Shown here: in pieces, positions 4,235 to 32,693 of the stretch
Layout: every line of letters starts with the position of its first letter
Position numbering within the stretch: position 1 is the stretch's first letter
Assembly (NCBI RefSeq): GCF_018598585.1
Contig: NZ_JAHESD010000063.1
Location: 1 to 32,771 of the forward strand
Direction of reading: 5' to 3'
Length of the DNA stretch: 32,771 bases
Origin: Chryseosolibacter indicum
GTDB taxonomy: Bacteria; Bacteroidota; Bacteroidia; Cytophagales; Cyclobacteriaceae
The notes under the pieces: generated by a model
Databases searched by the model: none
What the model was told of the DNA's origin: nothing
The model's input: the letters and a program-made list of their open reading frames with translations, nothing else
Program-made: the position numbers and the translations under genes

Positions 4235-5572
4235 GTGCAATTAAATACGCTGAATGCAATATCGCCTGTAGATGGCCGGTATTTTGAATCTGTAAAACAT
4301 CTTTCTCACTATTTCTCAGAATTCGGGCTTATTCGCTATAGAGTTCAGGTAGAAGTTGAGTACATCTTGTCTTTATCAGCCGTTTTACCGGAGCTTACTG
4401 ATTTTCCTGCCCATCAGATTGGTGAGGTTAGAAAGATATACAAGCAATTTTCTGAAAACGACGCAAGAGAGGTTAAAGAGATTGAAAAGACCACTAACCA
4501 CGATGTAAAGGCCGTTGAATACTTCCTAAAGAAAAGATTTGAAGCCATGAACATGGGCTTTCTTAAAGAATTTATTCATTTCGGTCTTACTTCTCAGGAT
4601 ATCAACAATACTGCAATTCCTTTATCCATTAAGGACTTTGTTCAGAAAGAATATCTCAGCACGGTTGAAGAGCTTATTAAGGCAATGAACCTTTATTCGA
4701 AGGAATGGAAAGATGTTACCATGCTTGCACGTACACATGGGCAACCTGCGTCTCCTACCAAGCTCGGCAAAGAAATCGCTGTTTTTTCAGCGCGGCTCGA
4801 AAAGCAACTGAACTTACTGAAAACAATTCCTTACTCAGCTAAATTTGGTGGAGCAACAGGAAACTTTAATGCACATCATGTTGCCTATCCGGAAGTAGAC
4901 TGGCATAAATTCGGAGATGAATTCTGCCAGCACCTCGGGTTGTCTCGCAGCTTTCCTACAACACAAATAGAACATTACGATAACCTGGCTGCCCTGTTCG
5001 ACAACCTGAAGCGCATCAATACTATATTGGTAGACTTCAGTCGCGATGTTTGGCAATACATTGCCATGAATTACTTTAAACAACGAATTAAGGAAGGAGA
5101 AGTTGGTTCATCCGCAATGCCACACAAAGTAAATCCGATTGACTTTGAAAATGCTGAAGGAAACCTGGGATATGCTAACGCGATATTTGAACACCTCTCG
5201 TCTAAATTACCTGTATCCCGTCTGCAACGCGATCTTACAGATTCTACAGTACTAAGAAATATCGGTGTGCCATTAGCTCATACAATTATTTCATTTAAAT
5301 CTTTATCACGAGGGCTCAGTAAAATTGAATTAAACAAAGCAGCCATTGATACAGACCTTGAAGATAACTGGGCAGTGGTAGCAGAAGCCATTCAAACGAT
5401 TTTAAGAAAAGAAGGATATCCAAATCCTTATGAGGCTTTAAAGGCACTCACGCGGAAGAATGAGAAAATTACCCAGCAAACAATTAGTGAATTTATAGAT
5501 ACATTGAATGTAAAGGATAACCTGAAGAAACGTTTAAAAGAAATTACTCCTTTCAATTACGCAGGGGTATAA
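4235..5572 (+). CDS. purB: Adenylosuccinate lyase
   Basis: A 445-residue enzyme of the fumarase/aspartase superfamily. It cleaves SAICAR to AICAR plus fumarate and adenylosuccinate to AMP plus fumarate in purine synthesis. The N-terminal ISPVDGRY (9-16) and the length match the E. coli-type PurB. Visible active-site segments are TTNHDVKAVEY (around His89), TSQD (119-122), RTHGQPASPTK with His168, and the signature GSSAMPHKVNP (291-301) with the catalytic-loop serine. The start is GTG at 4235; an in-frame TGA lies two codons upstream, so no earlier start is possible. A small membrane-protein gene follows after six bases and may be co-transcribed. Nothing is truncated or missing. Confidence 0.97.
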   Translation: MQLNTLNAISPVDGRYFESVKHLSHYFSEFGLIRYRVQVEVEYILSLSAVLPELTDFPAHQIGEVRKIYKQFSENDAREVKEIEKTTNHDVKAVEYFLKKRFEAMNMGFLKEFIHFGLTSQDINNTAIPLSIKDFVQKEYLSTVEELIKAMNLYSKEWKDVTMLARTHGQPASPTKLGKEIAVFSARLEKQLNLLKTIPYSAKFGGATGNFNAHHVAYPEVDWHKFGDEFCQHLGLSRSFPTTQIEHYDNLAALFDNLKRINTILVDFSRDVWQYIAMNYFKQRIKEGEVGSSAMPHKVNPIDFENAEGNLGYANAIFEHLSSKLPVSRLQRDLTDSTVLRNIGVPLAHTIISFKSLSRGLSKIELNKAAIDTDLEDNWAVVAEAIQTILRKEGYPNPYEALKALTRKNEKITQQTISEFIDTLNVKDNLKKRLKEITPFNYAGV

Positions 5573-5578
5573 CATTTT

Positions 5579-5836
5579 ATGATCTTTCTCCAAAATCAAT
5601 TATCGGGTTTAATGGTATCAGGTCTTATTGCAGGTTCGGTAGGTGCAGTCGGCACTTTTATATTTTTACATCTGTACATGACCAAAACAAGATTTTATCT
5701 TGAAGTATACAGGAATTTTATACCGGTAAAGAAATTCCTGTATTACGTCTTTTTCTTCTCTGTAAGTCTATTTCTTGCTTTCCTGGCTTTCTACCTCATT
5801 GCTTCTGTATTTGGCCTTATTGATGGAAGATTTTAA
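5579..5836 (+). CDS. Small two-helix membrane protein of unknown function
   Basis: An 85-residue protein with hydrophobic helices at about residues 10-33 (Gly/Ala-rich, GLIAGSVGAVGTFIFLHLY) and 53-80 (Phe/Leu-rich), joined by a basic and aromatic stretch (MTKTRFYLEVYRNFIPVKKF). I do not recognise a family. It begins six bases after the purB stop and is probably read through from purB. It ends three bases before the stop of the convergent beta-lactamase gene, which leaves no room for a terminator between them. The frame is open from ATG to stop with typical codon use, so it is probably real. Confidence 0.65.
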   Translation: MIFLQNQLSGLMVSGLIAGSVGAVGTFIFLHLYMTKTRFYLEVYRNFIPVKKFLYYVFFFSVSLFLAFLAFYLIASVFGLIDGRF

Positions 5837-8927: not shown

Positions 8928-9555
8928 ATCCTATTGTATCTTTATTAATGTTCTTTTTAACTAATATCTTTCTTAAGCTTTCAAGTCCGTAATACATTCT
9001 GGACTTTACTGTATTCTCGGAGATGTTTAACACATCTGCTATTTCTCTGAATTTTAATCCTTCATACTCCTTCATTATTACTACTTCTCTTTGTTCTTCA
9101 TTGAGTTGCAACAGTGCTTCCTGAAGAATATCAGAAAGTTCAATCTGCTCCAACTGCTTTTCCGGGTTATCATGCCTTTGTGCTGATGATTCCCAGCGTG
9201 GTGAATCTTCTGCTTCCCGGTTCCATACTACGTCAAAAGAAAGTGATCTGCTCCCTTTTGTTTTTCGCGCTTCCTCGCGGCAGGAGTTTACAGCTATCTT
9301 GTACAGCCAAGACTTAAACCTGGCAGTATCCTGAAGGCCATGTAAATTCCGACACATTGAAATGAAGGTCTTCTGTGAGATTTCCATGGCCATGTCGTGG
9401 TCCAGGAAAAACTTGTATCCAAAGTTGTAGATCCGTTTATACCACAGCTGAACCAGCCGGCCCTGGGCATTCTGGTCACCTTGTTTAGCTTTAACAATCA
9501 GGGTGTCAGAATGCATCATCGCAATATCCAGTAGAGTTTCAGCATGCATAACCAC
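8917..9555 (-). CDS. ECF-family RNA polymerase sigma factor (first operon)
   Basis: A 212-residue sigma-70 family factor of the extracytoplasmic-function type. Region 2 spans about residues 30-95 (GRLVQLWYKRIYNFGYKF, then FKSWLYKIAVNSCREEARK). Region 4 spans about 145-200 (LNEEQREVVIMKEYEGLKF, then REIADVLNISENTVKSRMYY), a clear helix-turn-helix. The linker of about 40 residues is somewhat long. In-frame ATGs at codons 1, 3, 13 and 14 leave the start uncertain; a start at Met13 or Met14 would still keep region 2 complete. The stop overlaps the anti-sigma-like gene. It is transcribed divergently from the methyltransferase gene across 199 bp. It should direct polymerase to its own operon and to unknown targets. 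Confidence 0.9.
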   Translation of the reverse strand: MVMHAETLLDIAMMHSDTLIVKAKQGDQNAQGRLVQLWYKRIYNFGYKFFLDHDMAMEISQKTFISMCRNLHGLQDTARFKSWLYKIAVNSCREEARKTKGSRSLSFDVVWNREAEDSPRWESSAQRHDNPEKQLEQIELSDILQEALLQLNEEQREVVIMKEYEGLKFREIADVLNISENTVKSRMYYGLESLRKILVKKNINKDTIGYEL

Positions 9556-13118: not shown

Positions 13119-13694
13119 CTATAGATGCTTTTCTAAATGCTGATATACTTCTTTTAACTCCTGCAAAGCGCGGAATACTTTCACTTTAACTGCCCCTTCG
13201 CTGCAACCCAGGATGTCGCCGATTTCCTTGTACTTCTTTTCCTGGAATTTGCTTAACAGAAGAATCTCGCGTTTATCTTCAGGCAGTCTGTCCATGGCCA
13301 TGGAGAGGAGTTGCATCTCTTCATCCTGCCTGAATTGTGTTGCTCTATCTTCCTCACTCTCGAGCCGTTCTTCCCAATTGTCTATGGATTCTTTATGCTT
13401 CCATTTCGTTTTTCGGAAGTGGTCGTGGTTTACATTTCGGGCAATGTGAAACATCCAGGTTTTGAAGTCGCCCTCTCCGCGGAAGAGGTAGCGATACTTC
13501 AGTATTCGGAAGAAAACATTCTGTACCAGATCTTCGCAGAGCTCCTGATCTTTGGTCATACCATAGAAAAAGCCATACAACGGCTTCTTATAGCGTTCGA
13601 ACAACAGACCAAGTTTATCAAGGTCTCCATCCTTCACCTTAAGCATTAAGGCATTGTCAGTCAAAGCGTCCAAATCCGGTGGTTTCGTTTTCAA
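13119..13694 (-). CDS. ECF-family RNA polymerase sigma factor (second operon)
   Basis: A 191-residue ECF sigma factor. Region 2 spans about residues 28-98 (LLFERYKKPLYGFFYGM, DLVQNVFFRILKYRYLF, then FKTWMFHIARNVNHDHFRK). Region 4 spans about 130-185 (LPEDKREILLLSKFQEKKY, then KEIGDILGCSEGAVKVKVF) and contains the DNA-binding helix-turn-helix. It heads a four-gene run with a membrane anti-sigma-like protein and two DUF4097 proteins. GTAACC occurs on the minus strand 27 bases before the start (13721-13726); similar sequences can act as ECF -35 elements, so autoregulation is possible, but no -10 could be assigned. If transcription does start there, Met17 would be the better translation start. 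Confidence 0.9.
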   Translation of the reverse strand: MKTKPPDLDALTDNALMLKVKDGDLDKLGLLFERYKKPLYGFFYGMTKDQELCEDLVQNVFFRILKYRYLFRGEGDFKTWMFHIARNVNHDHFRKTKWKHKESIDNWEERLESEEDRATQFRQDEEMQLLSMAMDRLPEDKREILLLSKFQEKKYKEIGDILGCSEGAVKVKVFRALQELKEVYQHLEKHL

Positions 13695-25179: not shown

Positions 25180-25208
25180 TTGTTCAACTGTTAATGCTTA
25201 TAATTTTT
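25180..25208 (+). promoter_or_regulatory. Predicted promoter and operator of the CarH-like gene
   Basis: TTG at 25180-25182 and TAATTTTT at 25201-25208 (one base off TAnnTTTG) are spaced by 18 bp, inside the accepted 17-23 range. The -33 element is part of TTGTTCAAC (25180-25188), which recurs before the sigma-crt operon, and the longer block TTCAACTGTTAA (25183-25194) fills the spacer. A protein binding this block would cover the promoter, so negative autoregulation is plausible. The ATG follows ten bases after the -7 element, giving a very short leader. Confidence 0.5.
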
Positions 25209-25218
25209 TAAAATTAAG

Positions 25219-26100
25219 ATGGGTACCTATTCTATTAAGGAACTTGAGCAATTATCCGGAATTAAGGCACATACAATCAGGATATGGGAAAAAAGACATA
25301 AACTTATTGAACCTTCCAGAACAAATACCAATATTCGCTACTATTCCGATTACGATCTAAAAAAAATAATCAACGTTTCACTCCTCAACAATAACGGTTT
25401 TAAGATCTCAGCTATTGCCCGGATGAACGAAGCGGAACTCATCGAAAAAGTGATTGAGTTAAGTAACTCTGGCAAAGAAAAAAGAATATACATCGATCAG
25501 CTTGTTACCCAAATGCTGGATCTTGACGAAGAGAAATTCGAGGCTGAGCTCGATGGTATTGAAACCAAGTTTGGGTTTGAAGCGACGATAACGGAAGTAA
25601 TTTATCCATTTCTTGAAAAAATTGGGGTTCTATGGCAAACCGGGAACATCACCCCGGCCCACGAACATTTTATATCTAATCTGGTGAGGCAACGCCTTAT
25701 TGTCGGCATTGCCTCTCTGCCTGTTGCTTCCAAAGCAACAATTCGTGCGGTGTTGTTTCTTCCCGAGCACGAACTCCATGAGATTGCATTATTATTCTTC
25801 CACTATATTACCAGAAAGGCCGGGTTTAAAACATTTTACCTGGGTCAATCAGTACCTCACGAGGATCTTAAAACAGTTTGTTCAATTCATAAGCCTCATC
25901 TGTTAATAACTTCCTTAACAACAATACCAACTATAAATCAGCTAAACGCGTATCTTCAAAAGCTTTCGAGTGATTTTCCGTCTTCTAAGATCCTTGCAAC
26001 AGGTTCAATGCTGAGAAAGGCATCCTTTCATTTTCCCAGTAATTTGAAATTCTTTAAGGATGCATTTGAGCTGAAGTCAATTTTAGCCGCTATGAAATAA
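25219..26100 (+). CDS. CarH/LitR-like MerR regulator with B12-binding domain, putative light sensor
   Basis: A 293-residue regulator. A MerR winged helix occupies residues 3-72 (YSIKELEQLSGIKAHTIRIW, then RYYSDYDLKKI). A four-helix B12 cap domain follows (about 90-170), with the W139-x9-E149-H150 motif that shields adenosylcobalamin in CarH. A Rossmann B12-binding domain (about 175-293) carries E185-L-H187-E-I-A190, with His187 as the expected lower-axial cobalt ligand. Known CarH/LitR proteins repress carotenoid genes in the dark as AdoCbl-bound tetramers and release DNA in light. Next to a crt operon this role is very likely here. The ExHxxG glycine is replaced by Ala190, which is discussed as a finding. 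Its promoter carries a box shared with the crt promoter. Not named carH because activity is untested. Confidence 0.9.
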   Translation: MGTYSIKELEQLSGIKAHTIRIWEKRHKLIEPSRTNTNIRYYSDYDLKKIINVSLLNNNGFKISAIARMNEAELIEKVIELSNSGKEKRIYIDQLVTQMLDLDEEKFEAELDGIETKFGFEATITEVIYPFLEKIGVLWQTGNITPAHEHFISNLVRQRLIVGIASLPVASKATIRAVLFLPEHELHEIALLFFHYITRKAGFKTFYLGQSVPHEDLKTVCSIHKPHLLITSLTTIPTINQLNAYLQKLSSDFPSSKILATGSMLRKASFHFPSNLKFFKDAFELKSILAAMK

Positions 26101-26105
26101 CCCGT

Positions 26106-26251
26106 CTTGTTTAACCTTCTACATCAAAAATGCCTTTTTTAATGAAGTTCGGTAGAATCCGTTAAACAACGCCATAATATCTCTTCCCTTTTGTTTAAGA
26201 ACTGTTATTCAACAGTTAGACTTGTTCAACCTTAAAAAATGAACGTTGAAC
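26106..26251 (+). promoter_or_regulatory. Operator array and promoter of the sigma-crt operon
   Basis: TTGTTYAA boxes occur at 26108-26115 (TTGTTTAAC at 26108-26116 region, CTTGTTTAACCTT 26106-26118), inverted at 26161-26169 (GTTAAACAA), at 26191-26199 (TTGTTTAAG) and at 26222-26230 (TTGTTCAAC, in CTTGTTCAACCTT 26221-26233), with an inverted GTTGAAC at 26245-26251. The dyad AACTGTT-ATTC-AACAGTT (26200-26217) is perfect. A promoter can be read as TTG 26191-26193, 23-bp spacer, TAGACTTG 26217-26224; the dyad fills the spacer exactly. The block TTCAACAGTTAG (26208-26219) matches TTCAACTGTTAA at the regulator gene in 10 of 12 bases. Binding by the CarH-like protein is inferred. Confidence 0.5.
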
Positions 26252-26757
26252 ATATGAGCGTAACTGAATTGACCCAGGAAATTATAAACCTCCAACCGAC
26301 GCTTCGCGTTTTTACGCATCGTTTTACGCGCGACAGGGATGAGTCCTTGGATCTTGTTCAAGATACTTTGATGAAGGCATTAATGTATAAAGACAAATTC
26401 AAAGAGGAGACGAACCTTAAGGGTTGGTTATTCACGATCATGCGCAATACGTTCATCAACAACTACAGGAAAACTCAAAGAGCACGTACCAGTAATGATG
26501 ACACCAAGGAACTGTATCATCTAAATGTTAAAGATGATCATACATTTAACGGTCCTGATAAGAAATTTGAGTACGAAGATATTTGGAAGAATGTACACGA
26601 GCTTAAAGAGGAATTTCTCATTCCCTTCAAGATGCACACATCAGGTTATAAATATCATGAAATAGCAGAGCATTTAAACATACCAATTGGCACTGTTAAG
26701 AATCGGATTTTCCATGCACGCCAGGAAATTCAGAAGAAATTGACAGGATATTACTAA
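26239..26757 (+). CDS. ECF-family sigma factor heading the carotenoid operon
   Basis: A 172-residue ECF sigma factor. Region 2 spans about residues 20-85 (FTHRFTRDRDESLDLVQDTL, then GWLFTIMRNTFINNYRKTQ) and region 4 about 115-170 (EEFLIPFKMHTSGYKYHEIA, then HLNIPIGTVKNRIFHARQEI). Both domains are complete. The ATG at 26239 is possible, but ATG 26254 (MSVTELTQE) may be the true start, since an inverted GTTGAAC box lies between them. It ends seven bases before crtI, so it is co-transcribed with the pigment genes. No anti-sigma gene follows, unlike the two other ECF operons in this window. By analogy with LitS of Streptomyces, whose gene is controlled by LitR and which drives crt genes, this factor may switch on light-induced promoters. 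Confidence 0.9.
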   Translation: MNVEHMSVTELTQEIINLQPTLRVFTHRFTRDRDESLDLVQDTLMKALMYKDKFKEETNLKGWLFTIMRNTFINNYRKTQRARTSNDDTKELYHLNVKDDHTFNGPDKKFEYEDIWKNVHELKEEFLIPFKMHTSGYKYHEIAEHLNIPIGTVKNRIFHARQEIQKKLTGYY

Positions 26758-26764
26758 TTTAAGC

Positions 26765-28264
26765 ATGATGAATCATGTTACAGTTATCGGATCTGGCTTT
26801 GCTGGTTTATCGGCAGCAACTTTTCTTGCAAAAGAAGGATTTGATGTTTCTATCTATGAAAAGAATGAGTCGCCTGGCGGACGTGCGAGAAAATTTGAAC
26901 ACAACGGATTTGTATTTGATATGGGACCAAGCTGGTACTGGATGCCCGATGTATTTGAGAAGTATTTTAACCTTTTTGGAAAAACCACTTCAGACTACTA
27001 CCAGCTTAAGCGGTTAGATCCCTCCTACAGGGTCTACTTTGGTAAAGATGATTATACTGATATTCCCGCAGGGATAGAAGCTCTGTGCACGCTGTTTGAA
27101 TCCCTTGAGAAGGGAAGCAGTAATCACTTGCTAAAATTTCTTGATGAAGGAAAGTATAAGTATGATGTTGGCATTAATAACCTTGTATACAAACCGGGAC
27201 TTTCACTTAGCGAACTGGTAGACTTTACGTTGATTAAGGGTATGCTGAAATTACATGTGTTTCAGTCTATGTCCTGTTATGTAAGAAAGTTTTTCAAGGA
27301 TGATCGCATTATAAAGCTTCTCGAATTTCCAGTACTCTTTTTAGGAGCAGCGCCGCAAAAAACACCAGCGTTATATAGCCTGATGAATTATGCTGATATG
27401 GCCCTGGGCACGTGGTACCCGATGGGCGGCATGTATAAAATAATTGAAGGCATGGTTACACTTGCTCAGGAACTTAGGGTTAAATTTCACTTTAACAGTT
27501 CGGTTACTGGAATTGATATTAGTTCTGGTAGGGCTAAGGGGTTAAACATAGCGAATCAATATGTTGAAACTGATTATATAATAGCGGGTGCTGACTATCA
27601 TCACGTAGAACAACAACTACTTCCCAAGACCTTTAGAAAGTACGCCGATGATTACTGGCAGAAACGAGTACTGGCACCTTCCAGTTTAATCTTTTACCTG
27701 GGAATAAATAAAAAAGTAAAAAATCTTCTGCATCATAATCTTTTCTTTGATGAGGATTTTGAAAGACACGCCAGTGAAATTTATGAGAAACCACAATGGC
27801 CAACTGCTCCTCAATTCTATGTGTCATGTCCTTCTAAAACAGATTTAACAGTTGCACCTGATGGATGCGAAAATCTTTTCATATTAATTCCTGTAGCTCC
27901 TGATTTACAGGACAGGGAAGAAATACGTGAGCAATATTTTGACATTGTAATTAACCGACTTGAACGACTAACAGGTGAGTCAATAAAGGCACATATTATT
28001 TATAAGAGAACCTACGCCCACAACGACTTTATCAGCGACTACAACGCCTTTAAAGGAAATGCTTATGGATTAGCAAATACTTTATTACAAACAGCGAATT
28101 TAAAACCAAGTATTTTTAACAAAAACGTGGGCAACCTGTTTTATACAGGACAACTTACAGTACCTGGGCCGGGCGTGCCACCTTCATTAATTTCGGGACA
28201 GGTGGCGGCAAAAGCGCTCATAGATAAACATAGAAAAAAAGCAAAGCATGAAAGACCTGTTTGA
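26765..28264 (+). CDS. crtI: Phytoene desaturase
   Basis: A 499-residue FAD-dependent CrtI-type desaturase, which introduces double bases into phytoene, normally four to give lycopene. The N-terminal dinucleotide-binding motif is G9SGFAG14, with Glu32 at the end of strand 2 and SPGGRARKFEHNGFVFDMGP after it, typical of carotenoid desaturases. The C-terminal signature NLFYTGQLTVPGPGVPPSL (from residue 457) and SGQVAAKAL identify the bacterial CrtI group. The length is normal. ATG 26765 and the next codon ATG are equivalent starts. It overlaps crtB by 17 bases and follows the sigma gene by seven. The number of desaturation steps cannot be read from sequence, but a lycopene cyclase downstream implies lycopene as product. 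Confidence 0.95.
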   Translation: MMNHVTVIGSGFAGLSAATFLAKEGFDVSIYEKNESPGGRARKFEHNGFVFDMGPSWYWMPDVFEKYFNLFGKTTSDYYQLKRLDPSYRVYFGKDDYTDIPAGIEALCTLFESLEKGSSNHLLKFLDEGKYKYDVGINNLVYKPGLSLSELVDFTLIKGMLKLHVFQSMSCYVRKFFKDDRIIKLLEFPVLFLGAAPQKTPALYSLMNYADMALGTWYPMGGMYKIIEGMVTLAQELRVKFHFNSSVTGIDISSGRAKGLNIANQYVETDYIIAGADYHHVEQQLLPKTFRKYADDYWQKRVLAPSSLIFYLGINKKVKNLLHHNLFFDEDFERHASEIYEKPQWPTAPQFYVSCPSKTDLTVAPDGCENLFILIPVAPDLQDREEIREQYFDIVINRLERLTGESIKAHIIYKRTYAHNDFISDYNAFKGNAYGLANTLLQTANLKPSIFNKNVGNLFYTGQLTVPGPGVPPSLISGQVAAKALIDKHRKKAKHERPV

Positions 28265-29084
28265 TAATGTTTCTTTAAAATGTAGCCGTATTACCACAAG
28301 GGTCTACAGCACTTCCTTTTCGTTGGGCATACTTTGTCTTAGTAAAAAATTAAGAGATCCAATTTATGCCATTTACGGTTTTGTTCGCTTCGCTGATGAA
28401 ATTGTAGATTCATTTCATGATTATAACAAAGAGGTACTGCTTCAAAAATTTAAAGAAGAAACTTATCAATCTATAAAAGACGGCATAAGTCTTAACCCGA
28501 TTTTAAACAGCTTTCAGCATACAGTTCGGAAATATGAAATAGGTAACGACTTAATAGCACAATTTTTAAAGAGTATGGAAATGGACCTAGAACAAAAGTG
28601 CTATAACTCCAGCGAGTATGAGGAATACATTCTCGGCTCCGCCGAAGTTGTGGGGCTAATGTGCCTGAAGGTTTTCTGCGAAGGAGATGAAGGATTGTAC
28701 CGGCATCTTAAACCCTTTGCCATGAGTCTCGGTTCTGCATTTCAAAAAATTAATTTCCTGAGGGATCTCAATGCAGATTATATTGGATTAGGAAGAACTT
28801 ATTTTCCCGGTTTAGAGCTAAATAAATTCGATCAGAAAAGTAAGCAAGAAATAGAAGCAAGTATTGACCATGATTTTGCTGAAGGTTTTAAAGGTATTAA
28901 ACAATTGCCCCGAAGTTCACGGTTGGGAGTTTACATAGCTTATGTATATTACCGGGCATTATACAGAAAGATAAAAAATACACCATCTGAATTGGTCCTT
29001 AAAAGCAGAATCAGAATACGTAATAGGCATAAGGCTGCTCTATTGGCTTATTCTTATATTAAACATCAGTTGAATATCATTTAA
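28248..29084 (+). CDS. crtB: Phytoene synthase
   Basis: A 278-residue head-to-head prenyl synthase that condenses two GGPP molecules to phytoene, the committed step of C40 carotenoid synthesis. Both Mg-diphosphate motifs are present: D50EIVD54 (YGFVRFADEIVD) and D173LNAD177 (INFLRDLNADY). The segment YSTSFSLGILCLSKKLRDPI near the N-terminus and GLGRTYFPG after the second motif are typical of CrtB rather than of squalene synthase. Its start lies inside the crtI end (17-base overlap) and its stop directly abuts the idi start. Its substrate must come from a GGPP synthase encoded elsewhere. Confidence 0.95.
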   Translation: MKDLFDNVSLKCSRITTRVYSTSFSLGILCLSKKLRDPIYAIYGFVRFADEIVDSFHDYNKEVLLQKFKEETYQSIKDGISLNPILNSFQHTVRKYEIGNDLIAQFLKSMEMDLEQKCYNSSEYEEYILGSAEVVGLMCLKVFCEGDEGLYRHLKPFAMSLGSAFQKINFLRDLNADYIGLGRTYFPGLELNKFDQKSKQEIEASIDHDFAEGFKGIKQLPRSSRLGVYIAYVYYRALYRKIKNTPSELVLKSRIRIRNRHKAALLAYSYIKHQLNII

Positions 29085-29612
29085 ATGGACAAGGTTGTAT
29101 TAGTTGATATACAGGATAATAACATTGGTGTGATGGAAAAACTTGAAGCACACAGAAAGGGGCTTCTCCATCGTGCATTCTCAATTGTTTTATTCAACGA
29201 CAATGGTGAAGTATTGCTTCAAAAACGATCAAAAGAAAAATATCACAGCGGCGGCTTATGGACAAATACCTGCTGCAGCCATCCCATGCCGGGTGAGAAT
29301 ATTACAGAAGCTACCAGAAGACGGCTGCGTGAAGAAATGGGCATTGATGTTCAACCCACCTTTGCGTATAAGTTCATATACAAAACCAACCTTGATCAGG
29401 ATCTTATCGAGCACGAATATGACCATGTCTTTATAGGTCAATTTAATGGCTCTCCCAAAATCAACCCCAGTGAAGTTGAGGATTGGAAGTATGTAAAATT
29501 GGATTGGCTTAAACAGGACATGGAGAAGAATCCTGACAAATATACCTACTGGTTCAGGCTAATCATCAATCACCCGGACTTGAATTCTGAATTAGCTCCT
29601 CCTAATTTATAA
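29085..29612 (+). CDS. idi: Isopentenyl-diphosphate delta-isomerase, type 1
   Basis: A 175-residue Nudix-fold isomerase that interconverts IPP and DMAPP, supplying the starter unit for isoprenoid chains. The catalytic cysteine lies in TNTCCSHP (Cys64 by alignment to the NSVCGHP motif of E. coli Idi), the Nudix-like helix is REEMGI (82-87), and the metal/acid residues Glu109 and Glu111 lie in IEHEYDHVF. QKRSKEKYHSGGLWTNT is a family signature. ATG follows the crtB stop codon without a gap, so the genes are coupled. Placing it inside the crt operon ties precursor supply to pigment induction. Confidence 0.95.
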   Translation: MDKVVLVDIQDNNIGVMEKLEAHRKGLLHRAFSIVLFNDNGEVLLQKRSKEKYHSGGLWTNTCCSHPMPGENITEATRRRLREEMGIDVQPTFAYKFIYKTNLDQDLIEHEYDHVFIGQFNGSPKINPSEVEDWKYVKLDWLKQDMEKNPDKYTYWFRLIINHPDLNSELAPPNL

Positions 29613-29617
29613 AATTG

Positions 29618-30934
29618 ATGAATCTTAATAAAGCTGAAGAATTGATGGATCAAACATCTACGATTTTTTGGTTCAGAAGAGATTTACGCCTTGAGGATAA
29701 CGCGGGTTTATACCATGCGTTACGGAATGAGTCGGACGTTGTATGTCTATTTATATTCGACATTGAAATCCTCAACGATCTTGAAGATGAATTTGACAAA
29801 AGGGTAACATTTATATATGACTCGTTACAAACACTTAAAAAACAGCTGGAGGAAAAGAATACTTCACTTCTAATCCTCTATGGAAATCCCGTTGACATTT
29901 TCTCCGAGATAAATCCTAAAGCAGTTTACACCAATAGGGATTACGAGCCATACGCACGAAGACGTGATGAGTCCGTACAAAAAGTTCTTGCATTAAAAGG
30001 ATGCAACCTTCACCTGTTTAAAGACCAGGTTATTTTTGATACAAATGAAATATTAAAAGATTCAGGTGATCCGTACACAATATTTACTCCTTATAGCCGA
30101 AGATGGAAAAGCAAACTCAATAAGTTTTATGCAAAGAGTTATCCCGTAGAAAAGTACTTCAGAAATTTTAAATTAATACCTCCATTACCTATGCCATCTC
30201 TTGAAGAAGTTGGGTTTAAGAGAGCAGTAACTGATTTTCCTGAACGTATAATTAAATTAAAAATAATACAGGAATATGACAAGCAAAGAGACTTTCCTGC
30301 AATAAGAGGTACATCAAGACTAAGTATTCATTTACGTTTTGGTACTTTGAGCATAAGGAAAGTTGTTCAGATTGCGTTGAAGAAGAATGAAGTGTGGCTC
30401 AATGAATTAATATGGCGGGATTTCTATCACATGATTCTCTGGTATTTCCCCCGAGTTGAGAACAATTCCTTTAAACCAGCTTATGATAAAATAAGCTGGC
30501 GAAACAATCTTAAAGAGTTTAAAGCCTGGTGCGAGGGTAAGACTGGATATCCAATAGTAGACGCTGGAATGAGGGAACTTAACGAAACGGGTTTTATGCA
30601 TAACAGGGTTCGCATGATTACAGCAAGTTTTCTTACAAAACATCTTCTGATTGATTGGAGATGGGGTGAAGCCTATTTCGCAAAAAAATTATTAGACTAC
30701 GATATGGCTGCGAACAATGGCGGGTGGCAATGGGCAGCCGGTTGTGGTTGCGACGCTGCTCCTTACTTCAGGGTGTTTAACCCGGAATTGCAGGCTGAGA
30801 AATACGATCCCGACCATAAGTACGTAAAAGCATGGTTAAAAGAATATGGAACTGACAAATATCCCTGTCCTATAATAGAACATAAATTTGCAAGAGAGCG
30901 GGCCTTAAAAGTTTACAAAAAAGCACTTGAATAG
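29618..30934 (+). CDS. Cryptochrome/photolyase family protein, class I photolyase-like
   Basis: A 438-residue flavoprotein. The N-terminal alpha/beta antenna domain begins IFWFRRDLRLEDNAGLYHAL, and the FAD domain occupies roughly residues 190-430. Conserved FAD and DNA-contact segments are SRLSIHLRFGTLSIRK, ELIWRDFYHMILWYFP, GYPIVDAGMRELNETGFMHN, RVRMITASFLTKHLLIDW and NNGGWQWAAGCGCDAAPYF. The closest pattern is the class I CPD photolyases, which use blue light to split pyrimidine dimers; a cryptochrome role cannot be excluded from sequence. A TTG at 29615 is in frame, and ATG 29645 is an alternative start that still precedes the fold. It lies in the crt operon, five bases after idi, so repair and pigment would be induced together. 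Confidence 0.9.
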   Translation: MNLNKAEELMDQTSTIFWFRRDLRLEDNAGLYHALRNESDVVCLFIFDIEILNDLEDEFDKRVTFIYDSLQTLKKQLEEKNTSLLILYGNPVDIFSEINPKAVYTNRDYEPYARRRDESVQKVLALKGCNLHLFKDQVIFDTNEILKDSGDPYTIFTPYSRRWKSKLNKFYAKSYPVEKYFRNFKLIPPLPMPSLEEVGFKRAVTDFPERIIKLKIIQEYDKQRDFPAIRGTSRLSIHLRFGTLSIRKVVQIALKKNEVWLNELIWRDFYHMILWYFPRVENNSFKPAYDKISWRNNLKEFKAWCEGKTGYPIVDAGMRELNETGFMHNRVRMITASFLTKHLLIDWRWGEAYFAKKLLDYDMAANNGGWQWAAGCGCDAAPYFRVFNPELQAEKYDPDHKYVKAWLKEYGTDKYPCPIIEHKFARERALKVYKKALE

Positions 30935-30988
30935 CCGAGAACATAGCGTGGTACAATTGTTAAGTAATTGGCGTAAGTCATTCAGAAT

Positions 30989-31480
30989 ATGAAAATTTAT
31001 CATCTGAAACGTAAACAGTTTTTACCGATTACACTTGAGGAAGCTTGGCGCTTCTTTTCAACTCCAAGAAATCTTGCGCGCATTACACCGGCTTACATGA
31101 ATTTTAAAATATTGTACGTATCCGCAGAGGAAAAAGGAGTGTACGCAGGACAAATCATCAGGTATGTGGTAAATATCTTACCAGGAATTAATGTAGGCTG
31201 GGTTACCGAAATAACACATGTACATGCGCCGTATAGGTTTATAGATGAACAACGTTTCGGTCCTTATGCCATGTGGCATCACCAGCACCATTTTGAGGAA
31301 GTACCAGGAGGAGTTGAGATGACGGATGAAGTAAACTATGCCATACCCTTCGGCTTTATTGGCCGCATGGCAAACTGGCTATTTGTCGGCCGGAAGGTTA
31401 ATGCTATTTTTGATTACAGGTACACTGTATTGGAAAAATTATTTACTAAAAATGAACTTGTTGTAAAAAGGTCAGCGTAA
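30989..31480 (+). CDS. SRPBCC (START-like) ligand-binding protein in the carotenoid operon
   Basis: A 163-residue SRPBCC/polyketide-cyclase-like domain of the COG4276 type. The N-terminus KRKQFLPITLEEAWRFFSTP and the segment RFGPYAMWHHQHHFEEVPGG are typical, and IPFGFIGRMANWLFV forms the C-terminal helix. The fold is a hydrophobic-cavity ligand binder. Members sit beside photolyase and carotenoid genes in several Bacteroidota, but no activity is established; carrying a carotenoid or another lipid is a plausible idea. It is 54 bp after the photolyase gene, and its stop overlaps the crtZ start (TAATG). The gap holds an imperfect CAATT...AATTG dyad but no good promoter, so the operon probably reads through. 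Confidence 0.85.
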   Translation: MKIYHLKRKQFLPITLEEAWRFFSTPRNLARITPAYMNFKILYVSAEEKGVYAGQIIRYVVNILPGINVGWVTEITHVHAPYRFIDEQRFGPYAMWHHQHHFEEVPGGVEMTDEVNYAIPFGFIGRMANWLFVGRKVNAIFDYRYTVLEKLFTKNELVVKRSA

Positions 31481-31974
31481 TGGATTTGAAATTAATTTTA
31501 ATTTGTTCGGCGATAGTTGTTGGTACTTTTCTTTTTTGGGAATTCGTTGCCTGGTTCACGCATAAATACATAATGCATGGATTTCTCTGGACCTGGCATA
31601 AGTCACATCATACAGTTCATAATCATTCATTAGAAAGAAACGACTTGTTTGCAGTTGTATTTAGTATTCCCTCTATTGCATTATTTTATTACTACTCTAA
31701 AGTAGAGTACAATCCCTACATGCTTTCAGTAGCTCTCGGAATATTCTTCTACGGTTTATTTTATTTCGTCTTTCATGACATCATAGTTCATCAACGTATA
31801 AGATGGAGACCCAAGAAACGCGGCAGATATTTACAACGTATGATCAACGCGCACTATATCCATCACACAAAGCACACAAAAGAAGGCTGTGAAGCATTTG
31901 GATTTTTATATGCTCCAAAAAAATATGAACCCAATAAGTTTGTTTTTAAAAAAGAAAGAAACCAAACACAGTAA
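31480..31974 (+). CDS. crtZ: Beta-carotene hydroxylase
   Basis: A 164-residue membrane di-iron hydroxylase of the fatty-acid-hydroxylase superfamily. It adds hydroxyl groups at C3 and C3' of beta-carotene, giving beta-cryptoxanthin and then zeaxanthin. All four histidine motifs are intact: H28xxxxH33 (HKYIMH), H40xxHH44 (HKSHH), H99xxxxH104 (HDIIVH) and H125xxHH129 (HYIHH). Hydrophobic helices run at about residues 4-25, 56-72 and 80-98. ATG at 31480 overlaps the preceding stop by one base (TAATG), which implies coupled translation. The lycopene cyclase gene follows after five bases. Length and motifs match bacterial CrtZ. Confidence 0.94.
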   Translation: MDLKLILICSAIVVGTFLFWEFVAWFTHKYIMHGFLWTWHKSHHTVHNHSLERNDLFAVVFSIPSIALFYYYSKVEYNPYMLSVALGIFFYGLFYFVFHDIIVHQRIRWRPKKRGRYLQRMINAHYIHHTKHTKEGCEAFGFLYAPKKYEPNKFVFKKERNQTQ

Positions 31975-31979
31975 TTATT

Positions 31980-32693
31980 TTGAACGAAAAATATTATTAC
32001 CTCGCAATTAATATTGGCTCATTCATAATCCCATTTATAGCAAGCTTTTATCCCAAGGCTAACTTCTCAAGAAAATGGAAATTTATAATTCCCGCTATAC
32101 TTATTACAGCCTTTATCTTTATTGTATGGGATGAGTTGTTTACGAGAATGGGCGTATGGGGATTTAATGAAAGATACCTTACAGGAATATTTATTTTCAA
32201 TCTTCCTCTTGAAGAGATCCTCTTCTTCATTTGTATCCCATATTCAAGTATATTTATATACTTTTCATTAAACCACCTGATCGAAAGAGACTATTTCTTT
32301 TCTTATCATCAGGTCATCTCCAATGTTCTTATTATCATACTCCTGTTAATTGGAGTCTATTACCTAAAACATTTATATACTAGTGTAACATTTATTCTTA
32401 CATCACTCTTTCTGGCATTTCTTAACCTGAAAGTAAAGCCCGAATACATGGGCCGATTTTATTTTGCATACCTGTTTGTCCTTATCCCCTTTTTTATTGT
32501 AAACGGAATACTTACTGGTAGTTTTATTGATGAACCAATTGTTTGGTACAATAATGAAGAAAACCTTAATATACGTTTAGGGACTATTCCTGTAGAAGAT
32601 GCCTTTTACGGATTGTTACTTATTCTAAACTCAATTGTGATCGCCGAGATGCTAGAGACTAAGTATGGCAGGAAAAACGAAGAAGTAAATTAA
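31980..32693 (+). CDS. Lycopene beta-cyclase, fused CrtYc/CrtYd type
   Basis: A 237-residue multi-helix membrane protein made of two lycopene-cyclase-like halves, as in the heterodimeric CrtYc/CrtYd system fused into one chain. Each half carries the expected acidic loop: P76LEE79 (FNLPLEEILFF) and P204VED207 (GTIPVEDAFYG). The first half also has WDELFTRMGVWGFN, a segment typical of this family. It should cyclise lycopene to beta-carotene, the substrate of the CrtZ next door. Roughly seven hydrophobic helices are visible. The only suitable start is TTG at 31980; an in-frame TGA or stop precedes it and the next Met is deep in the protein. It is the last gene of the operon and is followed by a strong terminator. 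Confidence 0.9.
   Translation: MNEKYYYLAINIGSFIIPFIASFYPKANFSRKWKFIIPAILITAFIFIVWDELFTRMGVWGFNERYLTGIFIFNLPLEEILFFICIPYSSIFIYFSLNHLIERDYFFSYHQVISNVLIIILLLIGVYYLKHLYTSVTFILTSLFLAFLNLKVKPEYMGRFYFAYLFVLIPFFIVNGILTGSFIDEPIVWYNNEENLNIRLGTIPVEDAFYGLLLILNSIVIAEMLETKYGRKNEEVN

Follow-up and report, generated by a model that had tools for sequence, protein, structure and literature searches.

In Streptomyces coelicolor, a member of a different phylum, the LitR-LitS system is known to couple a MerR repressor of the B12 type to an ECF sigma factor and to crt genes. The DNA contact known for CarH is nnnnTnnACAn, placed in tandem 11-bp direct repeats, and the operators of myxobacterial CarH are described as including degenerate repeats (PMC9304148). 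In the Thermus thermophilus protein, His132 becomes the upper ligand of cobalt in the light. Its H132A variant is reported to show light disassembly in one study and to remain largely tetrameric in the light in another (PMC10442372). Closer to the organism considered here, the account of Chryseobacterium lacus states that its authors found no car/lit operon genes, and it leaves the regulator unnamed (PMC7064467). Our search of the open-licence literature, covering titles and the openings of abstracts, found no published operator of the kind described below, nor a link between CarH and rhodopsin in Bacteroidota.

The window analyzed in our study is a stretch of 32,771 nucleotides from Chryseosolibacter indicum, in which the following genes are relevant.

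25219 to 26100, plus strand: CarH-like repressor gene (carH), 293 aa, with a MerR winged helix and a cobalamin-binding region
26254 to 26757, plus strand: ECF sigma factor gene, matching Pfam PF04542 and PF08281 (searched on 26239-26754)
26765 to 32693, plus strand: downstream genes crtI, crtB, idi (isopentenyl-diphosphate isomerase), DNA photolyase, two family-less ORFs and lycopene cyclase

The CarH-like protein matches Pfam PF13411 (55 bits, cut-off 21.6) and PF02607 above the cut-off and PF02310 below it. Its closest relatives belong to Cyclobacteriaceae and neighbouring groups, represented by MAGs and species, with Chryseolinea among the named ones. The sigma gene likely starts at the ATG at 26254 rather than at 26239, because in many relatives the start codon closely trails the right arm of the repeat described below, and the genes from 26765 to 32693 probably form a single operon, judging by their spacing and common strand. 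The two family-less ORFs (30989-31480 and 31480-31974), for which Pfam and NCBIfam give no match, co-occur with carH, photolyase and crt genes: ORFs related to the second directly precede carH in Algoriphagus and similar loci, and in some other loci ORFs related to the first lie close to photolyase, sigma or carH genes. Two further ECF sigma-like matches lie on the minus strand of the window, at 8959-9423 and 13152-13571 (23% and 30% identity). At 5119-5595 of the Chryseolinea serpens locus (L048), crtI and much of crtB are apparently absent, with only short overlapping fragments matching; this locus retains carH, the sigma gene and the repeat site.

A first-pass annotation of the window had proposed that single TTGTTYAAC boxes, shared by the carH promoter and the gap between carH and the sigma gene, are the operator of a CarH-type repressor. 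The elements found in these two regions are listed here.

25180 to 25187, plus strand: lone TTGTTCAA half-site, 39 bp ahead of the carH start
26107 to 26114, plus strand: exact half-site TTGTTTAA, directly past the carH stop codon
26162 to 26169, minus strand: exact inverted half-site, reading TTAAACAA on the plus strand, upstream of the promoter
26191 to 26198, plus strand: TTGTTTAA half-site, which together with TTAGACTT (26216-26223) makes a weak second inverted repeat
26217 to 26224, plus strand: probable -7 element, TAGACTTG, with one mismatch to TAnnTTTG, sharing bases with the left arm of the candidate operator
26222 to 26253, plus strand: candidate proximal operator, TTGTTCAA-N16-TTGAACAT, with one mismatch to TTGTTYAA-N16-TTRAACAA

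The individual boxes reported earlier are largely as described: TTGTTCAA occurs at both 25180 and 26222, TTGTTTAA at 26191, the inverted TTAAACAA at 26162-26169 and the inverted GTTGAAC at 26245-26251, and a single base separates the 13-mer at 26106-26118 from that at 26221-26233; the TTGTTTAA copy placed at 26108 is real and begins one base earlier, at 26107. The crowding of boxes was also borne out, since the 138-bp gap between carH and the sigma gene holds four exact 8-mers against about 0.09 expected (mean of 0.088 in dinucleotide shuffles, none of 2000 reaching four). What had been overlooked is that 26222-26229 and 26246-26253 are the two arms of a single inverted repeat, 16 bp apart. 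Its right arm ends immediately before the likely start codon of the sigma gene (26254), and nowhere else in the window does an inverted repeat (spacer of 16 or 17) have two mismatches or fewer. The upstream repeat at 26191-26223 is degenerate, with three mismatches and a 17-bp spacer. A further lone box lies at 25878, within the carH coding sequence. The 12-base TTGTTYAACNTT has 23 copies genome-wide against 25 for a reversed control pattern; the single box is therefore not rare in this genome, and we rejected it as the operator unit and replaced it with the inverted repeat TTGTTYAA-N16-TTRAACA(A).

The first-pass annotation had made its proposal depend on conservation in the orthologous gaps of relatives. 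We collected carH loci, 30 from the family (where 128 of 148 genomes matched) and 80 from GTDB contigs, and obtained 96 gaps after carH, 93 of them unique with the window included, among which near-duplicates and genomes common to both collections remain; the next recognized gene is a sigma gene in 91 of the 96. The last 500 bp of the unique gaps hold 179 exact boxes against 14.5 in shuffles, and an exact TTGTTYAA followed by TTRAACAA, their starts 24 bp apart, is seen 25 times, while shuffles give none. Fixing the spacer at 16 and allowing up to 0, 1 and 2 mismatches, we find the repeat in 28, 63 and 87 of the 93 gaps, where shuffles give 0.00, 0.05 and 0.72 gaps; at least two repeats with up to two mismatches are found in 41 gaps (0.00 in shuffles). 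A looser threshold (up to three mismatches, spacer 15-17) raises the count to 90 of 93, and because shuffles then reach 13.8 gaps, the stricter count is used here. In a set of 25 loci fetched later, of which two lacked the search motif and were left unscored, the repeat follows carH in 16 of 23 against 0.15 in shuffles; at least four of these 16 are letter-identical to earlier loci, and the set is therefore a partial check only. Since the aligned sites were selected by the letters of their arms, which inflates the base-by-base information content there, only flank and spacer positions were considered: T is preferred immediately ahead of the box and Y behind it, and TT is favoured two bases further inwards. 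Looping between two repeats was considered on the basis of their helical phasing (a spacing of 63 or 64 bp in 24 of 55 loci) and dropped, as the phasing is not significant when unique spacings are used (p 0.085).

These counts bear on the reading that the repeats arise by chance in AT-rich DNA or are terminators of carH. The gaps are indeed AT-rich and located after carH; nevertheless, the shuffles stay near zero, the arms are nearly devoid of G or C, and 39 of 40 sites away from the carH gap, hand-picked among the matches listed, are intergenic, so that we give this reading next to no weight. The conserved inverted repeat is probably functional, as the operator of the CarH-like repressor.

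The repeat also follows the presence of carH across genomes, with carH scored as present at E up to 1e-20. In the class sample of 295 genomes, the exact repeat occurs in 143 of 184 genomes with carH and in 11 of 111 without it (Fisher p 4e-32, kinship ignored), and in the family sample, in 100 of 126 and 2 of 20, respectively (p 3e-9, kinship ignored); the carH locus itself contributes sites to these counts, and the two samples overlap by a few genomes. Matches to the reversed control, counted by eye, were found in 8 of 146 family genomes and 14 of 295 class genomes. The exact site is absent from 41 of the 184 class genomes with carH, the window's own among them. At the level of the half-site, every arm includes TGTnnA, the complement of the CarH contact motif TnnACA, and inverted TGTnnA/TnnACA pairs at 24 bp number 105 in the 93 gaps against 1.29 in shuffles. 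The half-site therefore fits CarH and the spaced inverted layout does not: within the last 400 bp of each gap, three tandem 11-bp TnnACA repeats occur in none of the 93 (0.01 in shuffles), and the classical tandem direct-repeat operator was rejected on this count. Direct pairs at 11 bp show a minor excess (12 and 5 against 1.43 and 0.91 in shuffles), never three in a row. Pairs of TnnACA or TGTnnA on the same strand at 21 bp also exceed chance, for example 20 against 0.84. Because the repeat is conserved in the gaps and its presence follows carH, it is best read as a CarH-like operator, which keeps the regulator proposed earlier and abandons the layout of single boxes. That a different regulator binds the repeat and merely co-occurs with carH seems unlikely to us; the link is correlative, and at least one site is present in those 11 genomes without carH, but the half-site agrees with the contact motif of CarH and the repeats adjoin carH, standing also at some carH promoters.

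Another possibility is that the repeat is the -35/-10 promoter recognized by the adjoining ECF sigma factor, which would drive its own operon and other genes. The 24-bp spacing of the arms resembles that of an ECF promoter, and the sigma gene is the neighbour in nearly all gaps, as counted above. Nevertheless, the arms are mutually reverse complementary, and in many loci the right arm lies almost at the sigma start codon, so that an ECF-type transcription start would fall inside the gene. In addition, among eight genomes searched, there are two (L079 and L092) in which the ECF proteins are no more than distant relatives (28-29% identity, E of about 1e-15), but both carry the repeat before crtI (0-1 mismatches) and before carH (0 mismatches, spacer 17). 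Start-codon position, arm symmetry and these sigma-poor genomes led us to discard the ECF promoter, which we regard as very improbable.

The CarH-like protein itself was then compared with known structures and families. Its AlphaFold model has a mean pLDDT of 90, and the best PDB match is T. thermophilus CarH, 5c8d_E (Foldseek E 2.8e-15), with TM of 0.55/0.57 and an rmsd of 10.2 A overall and 3-4 A for the cobalamin domain. In the alignment of 46 sequences, the Wx9EH cap motif (W139, E149, H150) is present in all 46, the lower-ligand histidine H187 in 45 and E185 in 46. In the cobalamin motif ExHx2G..SxV/T..GG, the window protein carries A where the first Gly is expected (G in 29 of 46), keeps SxT and has G-S in place of GG, and the equivalent of His132 (residue 140, beside the cap Trp) is Gln in 34 sequences and Leu in 12, never His. 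The score against the NCBIfam CarH equivalog NF052513 is 85.9 bits, far under the cut-off of 400. Membership in the CarH/LitR superfamily is therefore sound, as the fold and Wx9EH fit, whereas strict CarH identity is weaker, since the equivalog score, the GG motif and His132 depart from it, and we leave the protein at CarH-like.

The same departures at GG and His132 would suit a protein that binds the repeat but answers to another ligand or partner instead of sensing light through B12, and a separate LOV photoreceptor is described as having a class II LitR for its effector (PMC9758184). Set against this are the invariant Wx9EH, the lower-ligand histidine, an adenosyltransferase encoded in the window's own genome and the light-related nature of many targets, and we consider such a protein rather unlikely, though the strongest of the competing explanations.

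The position of the repeat suggests how a CarH-like repressor might act. The housekeeping promoters of flavobacteria are described with a -7 box TAnnTTTG at -12 to -5 (PMC9723704). Among the 87 proximal repeats, TA stands exactly four bases ahead of TTTG in 34, with nearby offsets at 1 to 13; in the distal repeats this spacing is found in 13 of 82, and TA one base further on in 20 of 82. In loci with the TA, an upstream TTG is mostly 19 or 21 bases distant; in the window, the TTG at 26191-26193 is a possible -33 element that stands 23 bases before the -7 box, outside the 19/21 cluster. In an Algoriphagus-like group, the -7 box was found by eye within the repeat, ahead of the right arm. A protein bound to the repeat would thus be expected to cover the -7 box and the transcription start.

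We therefore propose, with good though incomplete confidence, that the boxes are half-sites for the product of the adjoining CarH-like gene, a repressor which light can release and which acts on the sigma-crt promoter. In the dark, AdoCbl-loaded repressor would occupy TTGTTYAA-N16-TTRAACA over the -7 element and the transcription start, and initiation of the sigma-crt-photolyase operon would be blocked; in the light, the cobalamin-adenosyl bond would be broken, the repressor released and the operon expressed. In relatives, the same switch would also operate on proton-pump rhodopsin, photolyase, PTPS (6-pyruvoyl-tetrahydropterin synthase) and fasciclin genes. From the sequences we infer binding, the dependence on AdoCbl and darkness, repression and the number of subunits.

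The proposal that the regulator also has its operator at its own promoter stands only in part: the box at 25180 is present, and a partner arm was sought there and is absent (best candidate with four mismatches). An inverted repeat with up to two mismatches precedes carH in 1 of 26 close relatives, the window included; in a wider set this is the case in 26 of 106 loci against 0.6 in shuffles. The case for self-control of carH through its own promoter in the window and its close relatives is thus weak.

Sites elsewhere in the genomes, which the first-pass annotation had not noticed, were also considered. Target genes were typed by protein clusters and the Pfam matches of their representatives, sigma genes by eye. 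Among the 40 exact sites introduced above (hand-picked among the matches listed), 28 stand ahead of five kinds of gene: fasciclin-domain genes (10, with one more site behind such a gene), PTPS (10), rhodopsin (4), photolyase (3) and a sigma gene (1). In eight of the ten PTPS loci (L179, L181, L194, L206, L207, L212, L213 and L215), the site separates PTPS from a divergently oriented gene, which in each case belongs to the same L,D-transpeptidase cluster. Rhodopsins were scored for a repeat with up to two mismatches in the 360 bp preceding the Pfam match; 62 of 71 listed matches in the family were fetched (nine fragments or weak matches omitted), 61 were scored and 58 typed. The repeat is present at 32 of the 61 against 0.1 in shuffles. 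We take DTE-type rhodopsins to be proton pumps and NDQ-type rhodopsins to be sodium pumps, and the repeat precedes 31 of 43 of the former, 1 of 13 of the latter and 0 of 2 others (DTE against NDQ, Fisher p 5e-5). Three loci (L232, L237 and L238) were dropped from the typed set because they were misplaced at contig ends, L237, the only one whose upstream sequence sufficed for rescoring, giving five mismatches, and L227, too short in the first scoring, has eight mismatches in the 110 bp available for typing. In 16 of the 31 DTE-type genes with a repeat, TA stands four bases before TTTG, and it stands eight bases before equally often. In the class, the repeat was found at 11 of 30 rhodopsin loci (30 of 65 listed matches had loci; this count has no shuffle control).

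In the window's own genome, a rhodopsin match was looked for and none was found, and its single fasciclin gene has a site with one mismatch 13 bp ahead of the likely ATG. Neither of its two PTPS genes has a site, and PTPS was rejected as a target in this genome. At up to two mismatches it holds 89 sites against 53 for the reversed control, so that the majority of these looser sites are due to chance; eight places have one mismatch, three of them inside ORFs. One repeat with one mismatch lies at 66424-66455 of contig C101, centred 31 bp upstream of a 495-aa ORF that is glycoside hydrolase-like by eye.

The best reading of these sites is a putative regulon broader than carotenoids, which in relatives would take in proton-pump rhodopsin, photolyase, PTPS and fasciclin genes. 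The CarH-like repressor is thus a candidate switch that may turn on rhodopsin, DNA-repair and cell-surface genes in the light. At its broadest, the proposal is a class-wide B12 light regulon of Bacteroidota, in which a CarH clade with a spaced inverted operator and a trigger without His132 would control proton-pump and exclude sodium-pump rhodopsins, CarH being the missing switch of rhodopsin phototrophy; we see this as evenly poised between true and false. The proposed repeat would predict where the B12 light repressor of Bacteroidota binds and offer a simple sequence key by which its targets can be recognized, and the new arrangement of CarH half-sites, together with a clade without the His132 ligand, would bear on the mechanism of CarH and on green-light gene switches.

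The locus can finally be placed among the known systems. Like CarH of Thermus thermophilus, Bacillus megaterium and myxobacteria, the regulator combines MerR and cobalamin domains with Wx9EH and a predicted TnnACA contact, and, as in those organisms, the putative operator lies over the promoter of carotenoid genes. Unlike the known CarH operators, which are described as often having three or four 11-bp direct repeats (PMC9304148), the one predicted here is an inverted pair with a 24-bp arm spacing, and unlike in known CarH, His132 is replaced and the GG motif of the window protein is incomplete. Inverted repeats at a crt promoter are shared with CarA of Myxococcus xanthus, which binds cooperatively (PMC9304148), but CarA is described as B12-independent and without Wx9EH (PMC8156234), whereas the window protein has Wx9EH and a predicted B12 dependence. 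The locus would also resemble the case of Chryseobacterium lacus, likewise of Bacteroidota, whose crt genes are reported to be induced by light (PMC7064467). On our best reading of the sequences, the kind of regulator is therefore known, while the layout of its operator would be new and its targets would extend beyond carotenoids.
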